Positions 2,460 through 10,785 of a stretch of 26,911 bases of DNA are shown piece by piece (position 1 is the first letter of the stretch; each line of letters opens with the position of its first letter). The translations under genes were made by a program, and so were the position numbers. Origin of the DNA: a virus; the IMG/VR virus record IMGVR_UViG_3300044956_000763, positions 1-26,911 of that record; one strand, 5' to 3'. The notes under the pieces were generated by a model, which worked only from the letters and a program-made list of their open reading frames with translations, was not told where the DNA came from and ran no database searches.

Positions 2460-3029
2460 ATGCGGTTAAATACTCCTTTTCAGATAGTAATAGGCGACCA
2501 TGTGGCATGGCGGTCGGGCGATATTTTCATCACTGATAACCAAGGCAAGGCGTTACCGCTTGACCCCGCCACCCATACCCTAACTTGGAAGTTTGGGAAG
2601 GAAGGCAGTAGTTTTGAGTTGACCTCGACTCAGGTAGATAGCGACTATTTAACCGTAATTCCCACCGCTACCAGTCAAGACCTAACCGCAGGGGATTATT
2701 ACTATCACGTTCTTGCCACCGTAGAGGGGGAGACTAAATTTATTTTTGCTGGCACTATGAAAGTAGTTGCCGCGATAGCAGAAGGCACAGACGCTAGAAC
2801 CTCGACTCAAAAGCTTCTAGACGCGGTTAACGCTGCTATTCAGACCATTCTAGACGGTGGAGCCGTACAGAGTTACTCAATCAAGGGCAGAAACCTTGCT
2901 AGGATGGGTATGGGCGAATTGATGGCTTTGCGAGACCAGTTAAAGGTAGAGGTAGCCCGAGAGAAGTCTGCTGAGAGTATTGCCCAAGGGTTGGGCGACC
3001 CGCGTAAATTATATGTGAGGTTCAGGTAA
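2460..3029 (+). CDS. Putative head-tail joining protein with Ig-like N-terminus
   Basis: The 189-residue protein seems to have two parts. Residues 1-105 are beta-rich, with alternating hydrophobic strands (GDIFITDNQG, HTLTWKFG, GDYYYHVLATVEG), like the Ig-like N-terminal domain of baseplate or neck proteins. Residues about 120-189 are helical and contain VQSYSIKGRNLARMGMGELMALRDQL, which resembles the small gpW-type head-tail joining proteins found between terminase and portal genes. The position between terL and portal supports that role. The ATG at 2460 lies 22 bases after the terL stop; a GTG at 2406 would extend it into terL and is less likely. It ends at TAATG, sharing one base with the portal start. 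Domain naming is by pattern only. Confidence 0.6.
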   Translation: MRLNTPFQIVIGDHVAWRSGDIFITDNQGKALPLDPATHTLTWKFGKEGSSFELTSTQVDSDYLTVIPTATSQDLTAGDYYYHVLATVEGETKFIFAGTMKVVAAIAEGTDARTSTQKLLDAVNAAIQTILDGGAVQSYSIKGRNLARMGMGELMALRDQLKVEVAREKSAESIAQGLGDPRKLYVRFR

Positions 3030-5719
3030 TGAGCTTTTGGGATGATTGGCTAAAAAGAAAAGAAAAGCCAAAAACCCGCTCCTATCAGGGGGCGGTGTTT
3101 AATCGTCTTAGCTCTGATTGGCTTGTTTCGGGTGCCTCTGCTGATTCCGAAATTCTATCCGCGCTACGTCCTCTCCGAAATCGCTCCCGAGACCTGTGCC
3201 GAAATAACGATTACGCTAAGGGAGCAGTCCGCACAATTGTTAATAATGTGGTTGGGCAGGGGATTAAGTTGCAGTCTCAGGTCAGGAAGCAACGGGGGCA
3301 AGCCTACGATGACCGCACTAACGAACAAATTGAAGAAGCCTGGGTAGAGTGGGGAGACGCGCTGTATTGCCACACCGCCGGGCGGCTATGCTTTAGCGAT
3401 ATCGAACGGTTACTAGTCCGCTCCTTAGTGGAGTCAGGGGAAGTTTTAATTAGGATTGTTAGGCGCTCTTTTGGGGGGAGTCCAATTCCCCTCGCCCTAG
3501 AGATTATCGAATCTGACCAACTTTGTGACGACTACTCCGTAGGGCAAGGGACGGGAGGGAAAATCAGGATGGGGGTAGAGGTAGACGATTGGCAACGACC
3601 TATCGGCTATTGGCTTTATCCGTATCACCCTGGTGATTATCAATTTAGTCAAAGCTACGCCGATGGGCGACTACTAAGAATCCCTGCTGATGAAATCTTG
3701 CATCTTTTCCTCTGTGACCGACCAGGGCAAACCCGAGGGATTCCGTGGTTTCACGCCGCTTTAATGCGTTTGCGGAATATGGGAGGCTATGAGGAAGCTG
3801 AATTAATAGCCGCCCGAGCGCAAGCAGCCGTCATGGGGTTTATTCAGACTGCGGACGGGGACAATCTTTCCCAAGGGGTAGAGGCGGGTAATAGGCTCTA
3901 TAATCTGGAACCTGGAGCTATAGAAGTTCTTGCCCCAGGGGAAACCTTCGCAGGGTTTGCCCCGACTAGACCTAATCAAGGTTTTGACCCTTTTGTTAGG
4001 ATGATGCTTCGGGGGGTGGCCGCAAGTCTAGGGCTATCCTACGAAAGTTTAAGCCGAGATTACTCGAATACTTCCTACTCTTCAGCCAGAACCTCCTTAA
4101 TTGAGGAGAGAGATAATTATCGAATCCTACAGGACTGGTTAATTAAAAATCTGCACAAACGAATTTTTAAGATTTGGTTGCAAAGTGCCGTCCTATCGGG
4201 AAGGTTGAATCTGAAGGGCTACGACTTAAACCCCGCGCATTACCACAAGGACAAATGGACGGCTCGGGGGTGGCAGTGGGTAGACCCCCAGAACGAGGTA
4301 GCTGCGCACAAGGAGGCCATAAAAGCGGGATTCACCTCAATCACGCAGGTAATCGCCCAAACTGGGGGCGATTTAGAGGATATTCTCAAAGAGCGCCGCA
4401 GGGAATTAGATTTAGCCGAAACCTTAGAACTCGGATTTGATACGACCATCGCCGCAGGGGGAGAAGAGGAGCAGCCAGCCGAAGGGGAGGAATCGGCACC
4501 CATCGCCGAAGGATTAACCCCTCTCCGCTCTTACGAACGGGCAATTAGGGCTAAACAGTGTAAAAAAGGGATAAGCTGCGGAAACGCCTGTATTGCTAAG
4601 GATAAGGTTTGCAAGCAATCAATCCCGCCCGAGCAAAAAGAAAATAAGAAGAAATTAATTAAAAAACTAGCTAAAAAGCCTTTAGTCTACAAATCGACTA
4701 AAAAGGCGGGAACAATTGCAGAAATAGACCCCGCAGAAATTTTAGTAGACCCTAAGCGATTCCAGTACAAGATTGTTGGCGAACATACTGCTACTGGCTC
4801 GGTGGGGAGCTTAGCAGGTGTCAAAAAATATGACCCCAACCTAGCGGGTATCTTACAGGTTTGGCAGGACCCCGCGGACGGCAAGACCTATGTGGTCAAC
4901 GGTCACAACCGATTAGATTTAGCTAAAAAGTTGGGAGCGGAAAAGGTCGCCGTGCGCTATCTAGACGTTGAGACAGACAAGGAAGCCCGAGCGGTGGGGG
5001 CAGTAACCAATATTGCCGAAGGGCGAGGCAATGCCCTAGATGCGGCTAAATTTTTTAAGGATACGGGATTAAGCAGAGAAGATTTAGTTAAGAAGGGAAT
5101 CCCTATGAGGGAAGCTATAGCCGAAGACGGGTTAGCACTTTCTCAGCTAGAAAATAGTCTATTCAGAAAAGTCATTGATGGGGAAATCTCTATCAATCAA
5201 GGGGCTATTATCGGGGGTTCTGGACTGGACAGCCCTAAACAAATAGCCCTGTACGAATTGGCAGAGAAGGAGAGCAAGCGGAGGAATGTCTCCGATATTT
5301 TCCTTAAGGAGCTTGCTGATACGGTTAAATCTTCAGAGGAATCTATCTCTTTTGAAACTGACTTGTTTGGCAACGCGGAGATAGTTGGTTCAACCGCTAT
5401 AGAGAAATCTCACTTACAAGCTCAAGTCAAAAAGCGATTAGCCCGAGAGAAACGGTTATTCGGATTAGTCAGCAAAAGCAAAGCCGCAACCGAACTACAA
5501 AAAGCAGGGAATTTAATCAACCAGTCTACAAGTAAAGAAATTTCAAAAGAAGCAGCAACAACTTTACAAATTTTTGACCAACTCAAAAACCTATCGGGTC
5601 CTATATCAAAAGCACTTAATTCAGGCGCGGATAGAATACTAAAAGGAGAATCTGCCAAAAAGGTTGAGGACGAAATTTTTGAGGAAATTAAAAAATTAGT
5701 AATATTGGAGGTTAAGTGA
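3029..5719 (+). CDS. Lambda-type portal fused to ParB-like domain
   Basis: The first 480 or so residues are a lambda-family portal: RSRDLCRNNDYAKGAVRTIVNNVVGQGI near residue 50, LEIIESDQLC, GRPGQTRGIPWFHAAL-like middle, and SLSRDYSNTSYSSARTSLIEE. The portal forms the ring through which DNA enters the head. Lambda-type portals are usually about 500-550 residues; this one has about 390 extra. The extra part opens with a four-cysteine motif (C511, C517, C521, C528), then a lysine-rich linker, then a ParB/Srx-like domain (about 565-665, with ILVDP and VVNGHNRLDLAKKLG). A helical tail follows, in the style of polyvalent DdrB-like ParB proteins. It overlaps the next gene by TGATG. Portal assignment is firm; the extension's activity is unknown. 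Confidence 0.9.
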   Translation: MSFWDDWLKRKEKPKTRSYQGAVFNRLSSDWLVSGASADSEILSALRPLRNRSRDLCRNNDYAKGAVRTIVNNVVGQGIKLQSQVRKQRGQAYDDRTNEQIEEAWVEWGDALYCHTAGRLCFSDIERLLVRSLVESGEVLIRIVRRSFGGSPIPLALEIIESDQLCDDYSVGQGTGGKIRMGVEVDDWQRPIGYWLYPYHPGDYQFSQSYADGRLLRIPADEILHLFLCDRPGQTRGIPWFHAALMRLRNMGGYEEAELIAARAQAAVMGFIQTADGDNLSQGVEAGNRLYNLEPGAIEVLAPGETFAGFAPTRPNQGFDPFVRMMLRGVAASLGLSYESLSRDYSNTSYSSARTSLIEERDNYRILQDWLIKNLHKRIFKIWLQSAVLSGRLNLKGYDLNPAHYHKDKWTARGWQWVDPQNEVAAHKEAIKAGFTSITQVIAQTGGDLEDILKERRRELDLAETLELGFDTTIAAGGEEEQPAEGEESAPIAEGLTPLRSYERAIRAKQCKKGISCGNACIAKDKVCKQSIPPEQKENKKKLIKKLAKKPLVYKSTKKAGTIAEIDPAEILVDPKRFQYKIVGEHTATGSVGSLAGVKKYDPNLAGILQVWQDPADGKTYVVNGHNRLDLAKKLGAEKVAVRYLDVETDKEARAVGAVTNIAEGRGNALDAAKFFKDTGLSREDLVKKGIPMREAIAEDGLALSQLENSLFRKVIDGEISINQGAIIGGSGLDSPKQIALYELAEKESKRRNVSDIFLKELADTVKSSEESISFETDLFGNAEIVGSTAIEKSHLQAQVKKRLAREKRLFGLVSKSKAATELQKAGNLINQSTSKEISKEAATTLQIFDQLKNLSGPISKALNSGADRILKGESAKKVEDEIFEEIKKLVILEVK

Positions 5720-7557
5720 TGGAATCGGTATTAAATGAGCAGGAAAAAAGTAGGATTTTAAACGAATTAAAATATGCTGTTTTTACAGGTAATTTACGGT
5801 ATGTTTCTGAAGAAAATGAAAAAACAGCCTTAGATAGAGGATTTACTTTAGTTCCTAATCTAATTAGGAGTGCTAAAAATTGTAACGTAGGTATTTCCTG
5901 CGGGGGGAGTTGTATCTCTTCTAAAAAGGTGTGTTCCGCGTCTTTGCCCGAGGGAATGCAGGATAAAAAAGCAGCGTTAGCAGCAGCCGTATCCACCGTA
6001 TCCACGACAGACCGAGGGAGCTACAAGCAACTTATAGCGGCGGGGCAATCCGTAACTGACCGCTACGTTAAGGAGGGGAGGTTAGGGGAATTTTCTAGTC
6101 TTTATCAGGAGTTGCAAGCCATAGGCACCGCCGCCTTAACCGAGAACCTTGACGCAAAACTAGATAAGTTAGAGGTAATCGTTGAGGGGAGCGGCAACCC
6201 GCAAGCGATTAAGCAATCAATCAGGGATTTTTACGCGCTAACAGGGGAGATGAGCTCTGAAACCCTAGAGGCGGTGGTTATCTCTGATAAACGGCCTATG
6301 GCTTCAGTAGGTGGGGGATTTATTGAGGTGGGGGATGACCGCTCCGATATCTTCCACGAAGCAGCCCACCATATTGAAGCCGATACGGATATTTATTTAG
6401 CCGCTAAGCAATGGCGGGATAGTCGGGCTATAGGTCCCGCTAAACCTTTAGCCGAAATAACGGGAATTTCTGAATACGGCGATGAGGAAGCCGTACCAGG
6501 CAATTTTATCAACCCCTACGTAGGCAAAGTTTACTACGGCGAAGACTCTACCGAGGTCGTGTCCGTAGGGCTAGAACACTTTAGCAATACTCAGGCAATG
6601 CGCACGCTGTACCAGGGCGACCGTGAACACTTCGACTTAATGGTAGGTATTCTCGCCACCCAAGGGCAAAGACAACGGTTTGCTGGGCTATACTCTACCC
6701 GTAGCTACTACAGAAATAAACCCCCAAAGCCCAAAAACTGTAAAAAGGGGATAAGCTGCGGTAATGCGTGTATTTCTGCAACTAAAACTTGTCGAAAAAC
6801 CCTAGACGCTACGGCAAAAAAAACTAAAAAAACACTAGAGAAGATAGTCAAAAAAACACCGCCTAAATTAAACCGAGCGAACTATAACGAGATGATTGCT
6901 GTAGGTAAAGAGATTTTAGACGGTGCTTTAGCTAAATCTTCTTCGGCAACCAAAATTTATTACAACGTGACTAACGAGTTAAAAGACCGCATAAAAGCCT
7001 CTGGGTTTGACGTTGAAGAGTGGGTAGAAACAATTACCTATACAGATGCTCAGGGAAATAAACTAAGTGTTCCTGAAGAAAGTTCGTTTAAAAGCGTGCT
7101 TTTTGACGCTGCTATTTTAGCAGGCACTGCCCCCAGTCTAGAAAAGGCAAGATACGATTCAAAATCACGCGCTTTTGCTAATGAAGATTCTATTACGGTT
7201 TCCGAATTAAATTTTAAGTCAGAAATTTTCCATGAGTTTGCGCATCATGTCGAGGATTCCGATTTTGATGCGGCGGTAGCAACTCGACAATGGAGGGATT
7301 CTCGTGCGAGTAGCGATGACCTAGTTCTCATGCGAGAACTTACTGGAAACCCAAACTATCGCGATTCTGAAGTGGGGTATCGTGGGAATTACGTTCATCC
7401 GTATGTGGGCAAGGTGTACCAAAATAGCGGGGCTACTGAAGTGCTATCGGTAGGGTTTGAACACTTGGCAGGGCCTATGTCGTTTAATCGCCTTTTGAAT
7501 CAAGACAGAGAACATTTAGAGCTTATACTAGGATTAATTGCTACAAGGACTCCGTAA
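5719..7557 (+). CDS. Tandem HExxH metallopeptidase-like protein with two Cys motifs
   Basis: I do not know a named family for this protein. It is built from an internal duplication. Each half has a C-x5-C-x3-C-x6-C motif (C55/61/65/72 and C341/347/351/358), a helical stretch, then a zincin-like site: HEAAHH at 213-218 and HEFAHH at 505-510. Both copies share QWRDSRA after the motif, NPYVGKVY or HPYVGKVY, and TEVVSVGLEH or TEVLSVGFEH; E279 or E286 (and equivalents in copy 2) could be the third zinc ligand. A lone N-terminal 50 residues precede copy 1. ATG 5719 overlaps the portal stop; a GTG at 5716 is possible. The place directly after the portal suggests a head-associated protein, perhaps internal cargo or a maturation enzyme. 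Protease activity is inferred from HExxH only. Confidence 0.7.
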   Translation: MESVLNEQEKSRILNELKYAVFTGNLRYVSEENEKTALDRGFTLVPNLIRSAKNCNVGISCGGSCISSKKVCSASLPEGMQDKKAALAAAVSTVSTTDRGSYKQLIAAGQSVTDRYVKEGRLGEFSSLYQELQAIGTAALTENLDAKLDKLEVIVEGSGNPQAIKQSIRDFYALTGEMSSETLEAVVISDKRPMASVGGGFIEVGDDRSDIFHEAAHHIEADTDIYLAAKQWRDSRAIGPAKPLAEITGISEYGDEEAVPGNFINPYVGKVYYGEDSTEVVSVGLEHFSNTQAMRTLYQGDREHFDLMVGILATQGQRQRFAGLYSTRSYYRNKPPKPKNCKKGISCGNACISATKTCRKTLDATAKKTKKTLEKIVKKTPPKLNRANYNEMIAVGKEILDGALAKSSSATKIYYNVTNELKDRIKASGFDVEEWVETITYTDAQGNKLSVPEESSFKSVLFDAAILAGTAPSLEKARYDSKSRAFANEDSITVSELNFKSEIFHEFAHHVEDSDFDAAVATRQWRDSRASSDDLVLMRELTGNPNYRDSEVGYRGNYVHPYVGKVYQNSGATEVLSVGFEHLAGPMSFNRLLNQDREHLELILGLIATRTP

Positions 7558-8205: not shown

Positions 8206-8796
8206 ATGCTTTTCCAAAATAAAATCAACCAACTCAACGCTACAGTTTCCACAATCAACGCAACCATTGAAGATTTAAGCCGTCAAATAGAAGCCCTACG
8301 GGAGCAAAAACTAGCTCTAGAAACCCACCTTCAGGAGTTAGGTAGTGCCGAAAATGCTGCGGAATCTGCCCTAGTTCAAGTCCAGACCGCTATCAGTATG
8401 ATTCAGGCAATTAGCCCCGACCAGATTGTCACCTTTAAAGATGCAATAACCGCGCTATTTAATACCGATTTACCCACCCTCCCCCCTGTCACCCCAGACC
8501 CCGAACCTAAAAACCCCACCCCTGACGAGGAAAATACCATAATTGTTGAACCAACCCTAGAGGATATGGTAGGGGACAATAATCCCACCATTGCTGACCT
8601 ACTGAAAGAGGAGTACACCAAAACCACCACTAACGGACATCCTGCGTGGATTAAACGCCTAAGCGTAGCCAAACTACGGAAGCTGTGCCAAGAGCGTAAC
8701 CTTGACAGTAATGGCACAAAAGCCGAGCTTATAACCCGTCTTGCTGACTGGGGGCTCCTAGAAGCTGACTTAGTAATCTCAACGATTAGTAAATAG
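8206..8796 (+). CDS. Coiled-coil protein with C-terminal SAP domain
   Basis: The 196-residue protein has three parts. Residues 1-50 are a coiled coil (heptad pattern in IEDLSRQIEALREQKLALE). Residues about 90-120 are a proline- and acid-rich linker (LPPVTPDPEPKNPTPDEE). Residues about 150-187 match a SAP helix-extension-helix domain (LSVAKLRKLCQERNLDSNGT followed by KAELITRLADWG), a fold that binds DNA. It likely forms an oligomer that touches nucleic acid. AGAGG sits 9 bases before the ATG. It lies between two terminators, apart from the main head operon, so it may be a separately expressed accessory gene. A structural role in the head is also possible. Confidence 0.75.
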   Translation: MLFQNKINQLNATVSTINATIEDLSRQIEALREQKLALETHLQELGSAENAAESALVQVQTAISMIQAISPDQIVTFKDAITALFNTDLPTLPPVTPDPEPKNPTPDEENTIIVEPTLEDMVGDNNPTIADLLKEEYTKTTTNGHPAWIKRLSVAKLRKLCQERNLDSNGTKAELITRLADWGLLEADLVISTISK

Positions 8797-9012: not shown

Positions 9013-10785
9013 ATGGAAAAATATTTTACCCGCTACCAAGAAATTACCCCACAAATAAACCACGACCGCCTAACCTTTTCCTTCTCCTCGGAAACCCCCG
9101 TTAACCGTGGAATTGGATACGAGATTCTCTCGCATAGCCCCGAGGCTATCAATCTAGAACGCTGTCAAAATGCCCCGCTCCTTTGGAATCACGACTGGAA
9201 TAAGGTGTTAGGGAAAGTTGAGAAGGTTTGGGTAGAACGGGGCAAGGGCTACTGTGAGATACGGTGGTCTAAATCCGAGCAAGCTCAAGCCGTCCGTGCT
9301 GAAGTTGAAGATGGAATTATTTCTAATGTTTCTCTCGGATATTCTGTGGAGAAGGTGCAGGATGGGATGCCTGACAACAACAGTTATACCGTGACTCAGT
9401 GGACCCCCTACGAAATTAGTCTAGTAGCCGTCCCTGCGGACCCTACGGTAGGAATTAACCGAGCTTTTCTTGCTAATATGGAACAAAGGAACTCTAAAGG
9501 AATTTTTATGGAAAATGCAACGCTAGATAGAAGCGAGATATTACGACAGGAGAGGGAAAGGATTCAGGCGATTACTAACGCTTGTACTCGCCACGGATTT
9601 AAAGATTTAATCGAGCCGTCTATTGAGGCGGAAAAAACTATAGAGGAAGTCAGAGCGGCGATTCTAGACCGACTCAGTAACGCCCAAACTCCCGTAGCGC
9701 AAGGCGTTGACCCCCTAGGCTTATCTGCTAAGGAGGAAAAAACCTACAGTATTGTTCGTGCGATTAACGCCGCGATTAGTAACGACTGGTCTAAAGCAGG
9801 ATTTGAGAGAGAATGTAGTCTTGAGATTGCCAAACGTGCTGGCAGAGAACCCAAGGGCTTTTATGTCCCGATGCGTGATTTAAAGGTTCGCGCCCCTTAC
9901 GCGGTAGGGTCTGCTGGCACGGGGGGGAACGTAGTCTCGACTGACCTTTTAGCCCAAAATTTTATAGACCTCCTCCGCAATAAAGCGATGGTCGTACAGG
10001 CGGGGGCAATGATGTTAAGTGGCCTACAAGGGAACGTAACCATTCCTAGACAGGCAACCGCAGCCTCTACCTACTGGGTTGACGAAGCCGAAGCCGTCAC
10101 CCAAAGTGAGGCAACTTTTGGACAGATTTCTCTAACCCCTAAAACCCTTGGGGCTTTATCGGAATTTTCCCGACTAATGCTGTTACAGCCGTCTATTGAT
10201 ATTGAGCAATTTATCAGAAACGATTTTGCTCGGATTATGGCTCTTGGGATTGACCTTGCTGCTATTTCTGGCACGGCAGCCGACAGTCAACCAAGGGGGA
10301 TTTTAAATACCTCTGGTATTGGCTCGGTGGCAATGGGCACTAACGGCGGTGCGCCCACCTTTGCCGCCCTTGTTAACCTTGTCCGCGAGATAGCGGTAGA
10401 CAACGCCGACACTGAGAGTATGCGTTGGATGACCAATCCGCAGGTCAAGGCAAAACTAATGACCACCCCTAAACAAACGAACGGGGTAGAGGGTAATTTT
10501 ATTCTGCAAGACCCTGGAATGTCGCTTTTAGGTTATCCGCTTCTTTGCACTAACCAAGTCACTGCTGCTGGGACTAAAGGAACTGGGACGGCTCTTAGCA
10601 CGATTATTCTGGGCACGTGGAGCGACTTAATTATAGGGGAGTGGGGAGTATTAGAAATCTTGCCCAACCCCTACGGGTCAGGTTATGCGGCTGGCAGTGT
10701 GCAAATCCGAGTTCTTCAGACTATAGACATTGCTGTGCGCTACGCTCAATCCTTCGCTGCTATCACCGATTTGGTAACTACCTAA
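9013..10785 (+). CDS. Prohead protease-major capsid protein fusion (HK97 type)
   Basis: One 590-residue chain carries three head functions. Residues 1-150 are an HK97-family prohead protease with likely catalytic H60 (LLWNHD) and S107 (ISNVSLGYS), and the family-typical TPYEISLVAVPADP. Residues about 165-240 are a charged, helical delta/scaffold-like segment (RSEILRQERERIQAI). Residues about 300-590 are an HK97-fold capsid protein (LLRNKAMVVQAGAMMLSG, YWVDEAEAVTQSEATFGQ, QPRGILNTSGI). During assembly the protease should remove itself and the scaffold segment. The only usable start, ATG 9013, sits four bases after a terminator and has no Shine-Dalgarno. An in-frame ATG at 9508 with a good ribosome site could make scaffold-capsid alone. 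Confidence 0.93.
   Translation: MEKYFTRYQEITPQINHDRLTFSFSSETPVNRGIGYEILSHSPEAINLERCQNAPLLWNHDWNKVLGKVEKVWVERGKGYCEIRWSKSEQAQAVRAEVEDGIISNVSLGYSVEKVQDGMPDNNSYTVTQWTPYEISLVAVPADPTVGINRAFLANMEQRNSKGIFMENATLDRSEILRQERERIQAITNACTRHGFKDLIEPSIEAEKTIEEVRAAILDRLSNAQTPVAQGVDPLGLSAKEEKTYSIVRAINAAISNDWSKAGFERECSLEIAKRAGREPKGFYVPMRDLKVRAPYAVGSAGTGGNVVSTDLLAQNFIDLLRNKAMVVQAGAMMLSGLQGNVTIPRQATAASTYWVDEAEAVTQSEATFGQISLTPKTLGALSEFSRLMLLQPSIDIEQFIRNDFARIMALGIDLAAISGTAADSQPRGILNTSGIGSVAMGTNGGAPTFAALVNLVREIAVDNADTESMRWMTNPQVKAKLMTTPKQTNGVEGNFILQDPGMSLLGYPLLCTNQVTAAGTKGTGTALSTIILGTWSDLIIGEWGVLEILPNPYGSGYAAGSVQIRVLQTIDIAVRYAQSFAAITDLVTT
9496..9510 (+). promoter_or_regulatory. Internal ribosome site and start for scaffold-capsid
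   Basis: AAAGGAA (9496-9502) is followed by five T residues and an in-frame ATG at 9508 (residue 166), exactly at the junction between protease and scaffold-like segment. The main start at 9013 has no such signal. This suggests that most capsid protein is made from here, in excess over the protease fusion. Confidence 0.5.

Follow-up and report, generated by a model that had tools for sequence, protein, structure and literature searches.

A basic four-cysteine module at the joint between head-associated proteins and exchangeable effector domains in phages of cyanobacteria

The window analysed here is a 26.9-kb virus sequence (IMG/VR virus record IMGVR_UViG_3300044956_000763, positions 1 to 26,911), in which three copies of a four-cysteine (4-Cys) module are distributed over an extended portal gene and the cargo gene next to it. 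The features are as follows:

3029..5719, plus strand: extended portal protein, 896 aa, with a lambda-type portal core, a 4-Cys module, a ParB/Srx-fold domain and a helical tail
4559..4612, plus strand: 4-Cys module, copy 1 (C511-C528 of the portal ORF)
4613..4702, plus strand: Lys-rich linker after copy 1 (sequence; family-wide composition; pLDDT <50 in the AF2 model)
4703..5338, plus strand: ParB/sulfiredoxin-fold cargo domain, approximate limits (PHROG, AF2 and Foldseek; NGHNRL at 4898)
5716..7557, plus strand: cargo protein, 613 aa, composed of a short N-terminal region, module, zincin, module and zincin (alignment)
5881..5934, plus strand: 4-Cys module, copy 2 (C56-C73, counted from GTG 5716)
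6133..6675, plus strand: zincin-like metallopeptidase 1, approximate limits (HEAAH 6355-6369; 35% identical to the second zincin)
6739..6792, plus strand: 4-Cys module, copy 3 (C342-C359, counted from GTG 5716)
7009..7554, plus strand: zincin-like metallopeptidase 2 (HEFAH 7231-7245; Glu of [SA]TEV at 7432)
9013..10785, plus strand: major head protein, the next head gene downstream (PF05065, E 3e-41; PF04586, E 6e-11)

The spacing C-x5-C-x3-C-x6-C is the same in all three window copies, as the first-pass annotation of this DNA had described; its numbers C55 and C341 are counted from ATG 5719 and correspond to C56 and C342 counted from GTG 5716. The core DNA pattern GGNATHWSNTGYGG matches three times in the window, compared with 0.08 matches expected, and none of 100 shuffles gave three or more. 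Moreover, when copy 1 was used as the query against the whole record, exactly three module copies were recovered. The order of cargo domains read at first, a ParB-like domain after copy 1 and an HExxH domain after copies 2 and 3, was likewise recovered, and the Lys/Ala-rich linker proposed to follow each module holds across the family, with Lys at 11.4% (7.5% elsewhere in the same proteins) and Ala at 14.4% (10.6% elsewhere).

The portal core is matched by PF05136 (E 8.7e-110, residues 25-368) and TIGR01539 (residues 28-472), and the portals most closely related to it are those of cyanosiphophages S-LBS1, S-CBS1 and S-CBS3. These portals are 501-509 aa long and lack the insert, with the capsid gene following directly; because the closest cyanosiphophage relatives are without the module, it is an accessory element. 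The cargo domain behind copy 1 gave ParB-like PHROG matches at E 1e-3, and its AF2 model, of moderate confidence (mean pLDDT 70), found ParB/Noc as the best Foldseek match (E 1.9e-6, prob 1.00). About 20 homologues of this domain are present among the module proteins.

Both zincin domains of the cargo protein contain HExxH plus a downstream Glu in [SA]TEV. The AF2 model of the second one (mean pLDDT 91.5) was aligned best by VIA-align with a zincin catalytic domain (Z 8.6 over 140 residues), and PPEP-2 gave Z 7.6 and thermolysin-type structures Z about 6. Foldseek found no significant match for the model in the PDB and seven significant viral proteins in BFVD. The cargo protein matches PHROG 20397, 33618 and 8561, all of unknown function. 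Past the cargo gene and ahead of the capsid gene, positions 8206-8796 encode a small protein that is coiled at its N-terminus and ends in a SAP domain (PF02037, E 2.4e-11), a possible DNA-binding head or scaffold protein. The capsid gene itself (9013-10785) encodes an S78 prohead protease and an HK97-type capsid domain fused in one protein.

The module is found far beyond this phage. An exact-pattern scan of IMG/VR listed at least 120 stretches, a few of which are Cys-rich chance matches, and at least 97 distinct module ORFs of 100 aa or longer remained among the matches listed after near-duplicates were removed. Among these listed matches, at least 100 residues follow the last copy in 86 of the 97 ORFs, the first copy lies within 70 residues of the start in 53 of them, and up to nine copies occur per record. 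A scan of a genome collection with a narrow alignment gave one cyanobacterial contig. Besides the cysteines, conserved positions include a basic residue (Lys or other) at several sites, Ser/Thr before Cys3 and Ser/Ala after the Ile. The mean net charge of the module is +5.1; stretches taken at random from the module proteins average +1.0. The motif is a small basic domain of about 20-25 residues with a net charge of about +5.

The early impression that the module belongs to no named family agrees with the library searches. No Pfam or NCBIfam model lies over it in the window proteins, no Pfam match covers it in ten further module proteins, and sequence and profile searches of the PDB gave no chain covering it, with two chance-level matches only. 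Literature searches for peptide strings of the module found nothing. Two PHROG profiles take in the module, namely PHROG 33618 (unknown function; matching 21 of 101 module proteins) and PHROG 16619 (minor head protein; 12 of 101), and both are whole-protein clusters in which the module is unnamed and is not set apart as a unit of its own.

The cargo behind the module is diverse: the 101 module proteins include ART, LPD1, DnaJ, kinase/RIO/APH, Endonuclease_1, Zeta toxin, InPase and SNase domains, and in multi-domain chains one module stands before each domain. The upstream side varies as well. Three portal families precede the module, PF05136 (lambda-type, in the window), PF06074 (Mu-type, locus L018) and PF06381 (locus L112), and ParB or ART is found behind the module in all three portal-fusion types; otherwise, minor-head-like proteins or a short leader precede it. 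Among 125 modules, 111 pairs share a leader and differ in cargo and 91 pairs share the cargo and differ in leader, these pairs being overlapping and not independent.

Exchange at the module can be followed in closely related sequences. Loci L006 and L007 are 95-97% identical, and in L007 the portal is joined to the peptidase via a crossover that keeps the frame and falls within the module, passing from the portal's copy to that of the following gene; the switch has 12 bp of identity, and about 1.3 kb is lost relative to L006. Identity tracts at module crossovers are 12-23 bp long. On its upstream side the single L006 module matches window copy 2, and on its downstream side window copy 3. Compared with the window, L006 looks like another case in which sequence between the second and third modules was gained or lost. 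In locus L091, two adjacent genes (4444-7358) share 183 identical residues over 550 nt, covering leader, module and linker, and then continue into unrelated C-termini. The identical stretch might reflect recent duplication or gene conversion. The same pattern, at about 96% identity, is present in locus L178. As a separate observation, three cyanobacterial genome loci (L178, L187 and L188) carry the conserved leader KVS..L.KR..F...SY.L.N before the module, and their leader-module genes lie in tandem with differing C-termini. The module occupies a portable joint position, and cassettes are exchanged at or inside it. The first-pass annotation had proposed a portable tag that marks or attaches capsid-associated domains: portability, between head proteins and varied effectors, and a fixed joint of constant and variable parts are observed, while marking or attaching is what we infer.

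Named phages also place the module near head genes. In Planktothrix phage PaV-LD the tag is carried by five genes, ORF078-081 and ORF085, in the interval from capsid to tape measure, and two of them are annotated as virion proteins. The copies lie in the N-terminal part and have the spacing variant C-x7-C, and ORF085 falls into the PHROG 'minor head protein' class. The gp048 protein of Aphanizomenon phage CL131 contains four module copies, and its gene adjoins the tape measure gene. For CL131, 23 virion proteins are reported by mass spectrometry, and the main text of that report does not name ORF048 (PMC6293099). In Synechococcus phage S-CBWM1, the module is at the extreme N-terminus of gp106 and of three kinases, two of the three kinase tags requiring a start upstream of the annotated one, and it lies inside gp174, which is annotated as a 'virion structural protein' and whose gene adjoins that of the capsid. 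For S-CBWM1 gp113 and gp161 (loci L004 and L186), the annotated starts are downstream of the module, and the true N-termini probably start 5' of these and include the tag. Generally, genes flanking module genes are mainly of the terminase, portal, maturation protease and minor head families; in control regions of larger records, about 10 kb or more away from every module detected, genes are mostly for replication and DNA metabolism, with three proteases and two portals. The flanking and control sets are not perfectly matched.

This link to head genes is strong but not universal, and the expectation that the module would always lie in them did not hold. Most tagged genes of S-CBWM1 are away from the head cluster. 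In addition, exported bacterial and prophage proteins carry the module directly after a signal peptide (judged by eye) or at the C-terminus, and confinement to head genes was rejected on this account. Since proteins with signal peptides and no head role carry the module, its basic property cannot be head-specific. Examples from prophage or phage genes combine a signal peptide and the module with an EndA-like nuclease, SNase or SH3 domain (L088, 5891-6736; L074, 2016-2951; L005, 5941-6366). As well, loci L146, L121, L093, L046, L048 and L189 encode tiny exported or lipoprotein-like proteins ending in CCKxC..GKxCGxSCI....C....GCAC, a small Cys-rich family without a name.

Regarding the module's own structure, a disulfide clasp and a zinc knuckle had both been suggested, and the pattern of cysteine loss fits the former better. 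With Cys-neutral scoring, 148 copies keep all four cysteines, nine lose exactly C1 and C3, one loses C2 only, and no other pair is lost. A profile search gave 16 two-Cys copies without C1 and C3, in which C2 and C4 are kept, any residue may stand at C1, and C3 is replaced by Phe, Trp, Tyr or His. Such paired loss is what C1-C3 and C2-C4 disulfides would be expected to leave, and it may reflect few independent origins. Judging from these sequences, two disulfides, Cys1-Cys3 and Cys2-Cys4, most likely hold the module together. Structure prediction, which had been proposed as a check, yielded for copy 3 in AF2 two short strands at I-S-C and A-C-I, containing Cys2 and Cys3 (pLDDT about 88). A zinc knuckle, in which the four cysteines would bind one Zn and the basic surface would bind DNA as in nucleocapsid knuckles, would agree with four cysteines in about 18 residues, conserved glycines and the net charge, as well as with His in place of C3 in several two-Cys copies. 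However, Phe, Trp and Tyr occur at that position as well as His, and exported proteins carry the module in oxidising compartments. A four-ligand site would not decay by the loss of C1 and C3 with C2 and C4 staying; here the ligands are not conserved or lost as one unit (9 to 16 copies), which makes a zinc site improbable. The host cytoplasm, where heads are assembled, is reducing, and the disulfides would therefore form late or in the released virion.

We consider that the module is probably the constant-region joint of a polyvalent or polymorphic effector-delivery architecture of phages, of which loading into the head and the disulfides are the parts that we infer. On its N-terminal side would lie the virion-anchored or constant part, that is, a portal, a minor-head-like protein, a leader or the first few residues. 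On its C-terminal side, a flexible Lys/Ala-rich linker would lead to interchangeable effectors such as ParB/Srx, zincin, ADP-ribosyltransferase, kinase, hydrolase or nuclease domains. The module might help to keep the domain attached to it inside the head. The simplest ways would be docking onto a head component or charge-based binding to the packaged DNA, and the effectors would enter the host together with the DNA. In the window, one effector would ride on the portal and two zincins on the next protein. The swappable enzymes joined by the module are probably injected into cyanobacteria. A bolder version, in which a single basic clasp, redox-sensitive and closed by two disulfides, brings unrelated effectors into cyanophage heads across morphologies and portal types, with cassettes exchanged at the tag, is offered tentatively as a possibility.

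Several other roles could produce parts of this picture. Crossovers inside the module at short identity tracts, together with gene pairs that have an identical leader and different cargo, would also be expected if the module were a passive linker with no role in trafficking, spread since its conserved DNA offers effector cassettes a convenient place to recombine. We give this a low probability: conservation of the Cys, Gly and Lys residues persists where the underlying DNA is very divergent, and also in tags present as one copy at the N-terminus, and the switches in L091 and L178 lie well downstream of the module, which is therefore kept and not merely used as a joint. Alternatively, the module might be a spacer that is recognised or cut by a neighbouring zincin or by the prohead protease, so that effectors are freed from the polypeptide. 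Zincins are indeed common cargo, the module precedes each domain in multi-domain chains, and zincin-like peptidases have been proposed to process polyvalent proteins (PMC5512222); the window zincins may also process the chain they ride on. Yet many module proteins have the tag only at the N-terminus and no zincin, and the module follows signal peptides in proteins without such a peptidase, so a spacer of this kind seems quite improbable.

The proteins that combine a signal peptide and the module with EndA, SNase or SH3 domains suggest a different origin, namely a general extracytoplasmic disulfide mini-domain, binding the envelope or polyanions, that phages borrowed; in virions its main role would be to stabilise or anchor proteins while they are ejected through the envelope. 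Variety is far greater among the phage forms, though, which combine with portals and cytoplasmic-type enzymes such as kinases. Moreover, cyanobacterial genomes seldom hold a clear copy (7 of 386 with any match). We therefore regard such an origin as rather unlikely, and we retain the joint of an effector-delivery architecture as the preferred reading.

To our knowledge, how phages choose the proteins that are carried in the head and injected is known for few systems. A tag common to portals, minor-head-like proteins and free kinases would be a sequence handle for injected effectors of cyanobacterial phages, many of them unannotated, and might serve as an address by which foreign proteins are loaded into heads. 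The observed swaps show how such effector arsenals are reassembled. In T4, the internal head proteins and Alt have a short N-terminal capsid targeting sequence that carries unrelated proteins into the head. The 4-Cys module is of a different sequence type from this targeting sequence and gives no sign of removal by a prohead protease. The loss of its cysteines in one fixed pair (C1 with C3) is what a two-disulfide mini-domain would show.

A likeness is also found in the MuF polymorphic toxins of temperate phages, in which a constant N-terminal virion-type part is likewise joined to a variable C-terminal effector (PMC5576092), an arrangement seen here in L091, L178 and other pairs. The constant part there is the MuF domain, whereas here it is the 4-Cys module after portals or leaders, and PHROG, Pfam and NCBIfam searches gave no MuF match in the window portal or cargo ORF. 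Polyvalent proteins occur in phages and conjugative elements and have been proposed to be injected with DNA (Iyer et al. 2017, PMC5512222). According to the main text of that study, they have in common with the module proteins a cargo repertoire of zincin MPTase, DdrB-like ParB/Srx, ART and LPD domains, as well as fusions to portal or head proteins, and because the cargo set is the same, we file the window proteins with the polyvalent effectors. The window proteins combine disparate domains per chain (portal with ParB/Srx, then two zincins in the next protein), their zincin-like MPTases have HExxH plus the downstream Glu, and the portal cargo domain has the ParB/Srx fold, judged by the Foldseek match of a moderate-confidence model. 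The main text of PMC5512222 contains no 'cysteine' and describes no such joint module; set against that text, the 4-Cys module is an undescribed component of polyvalent effectors.
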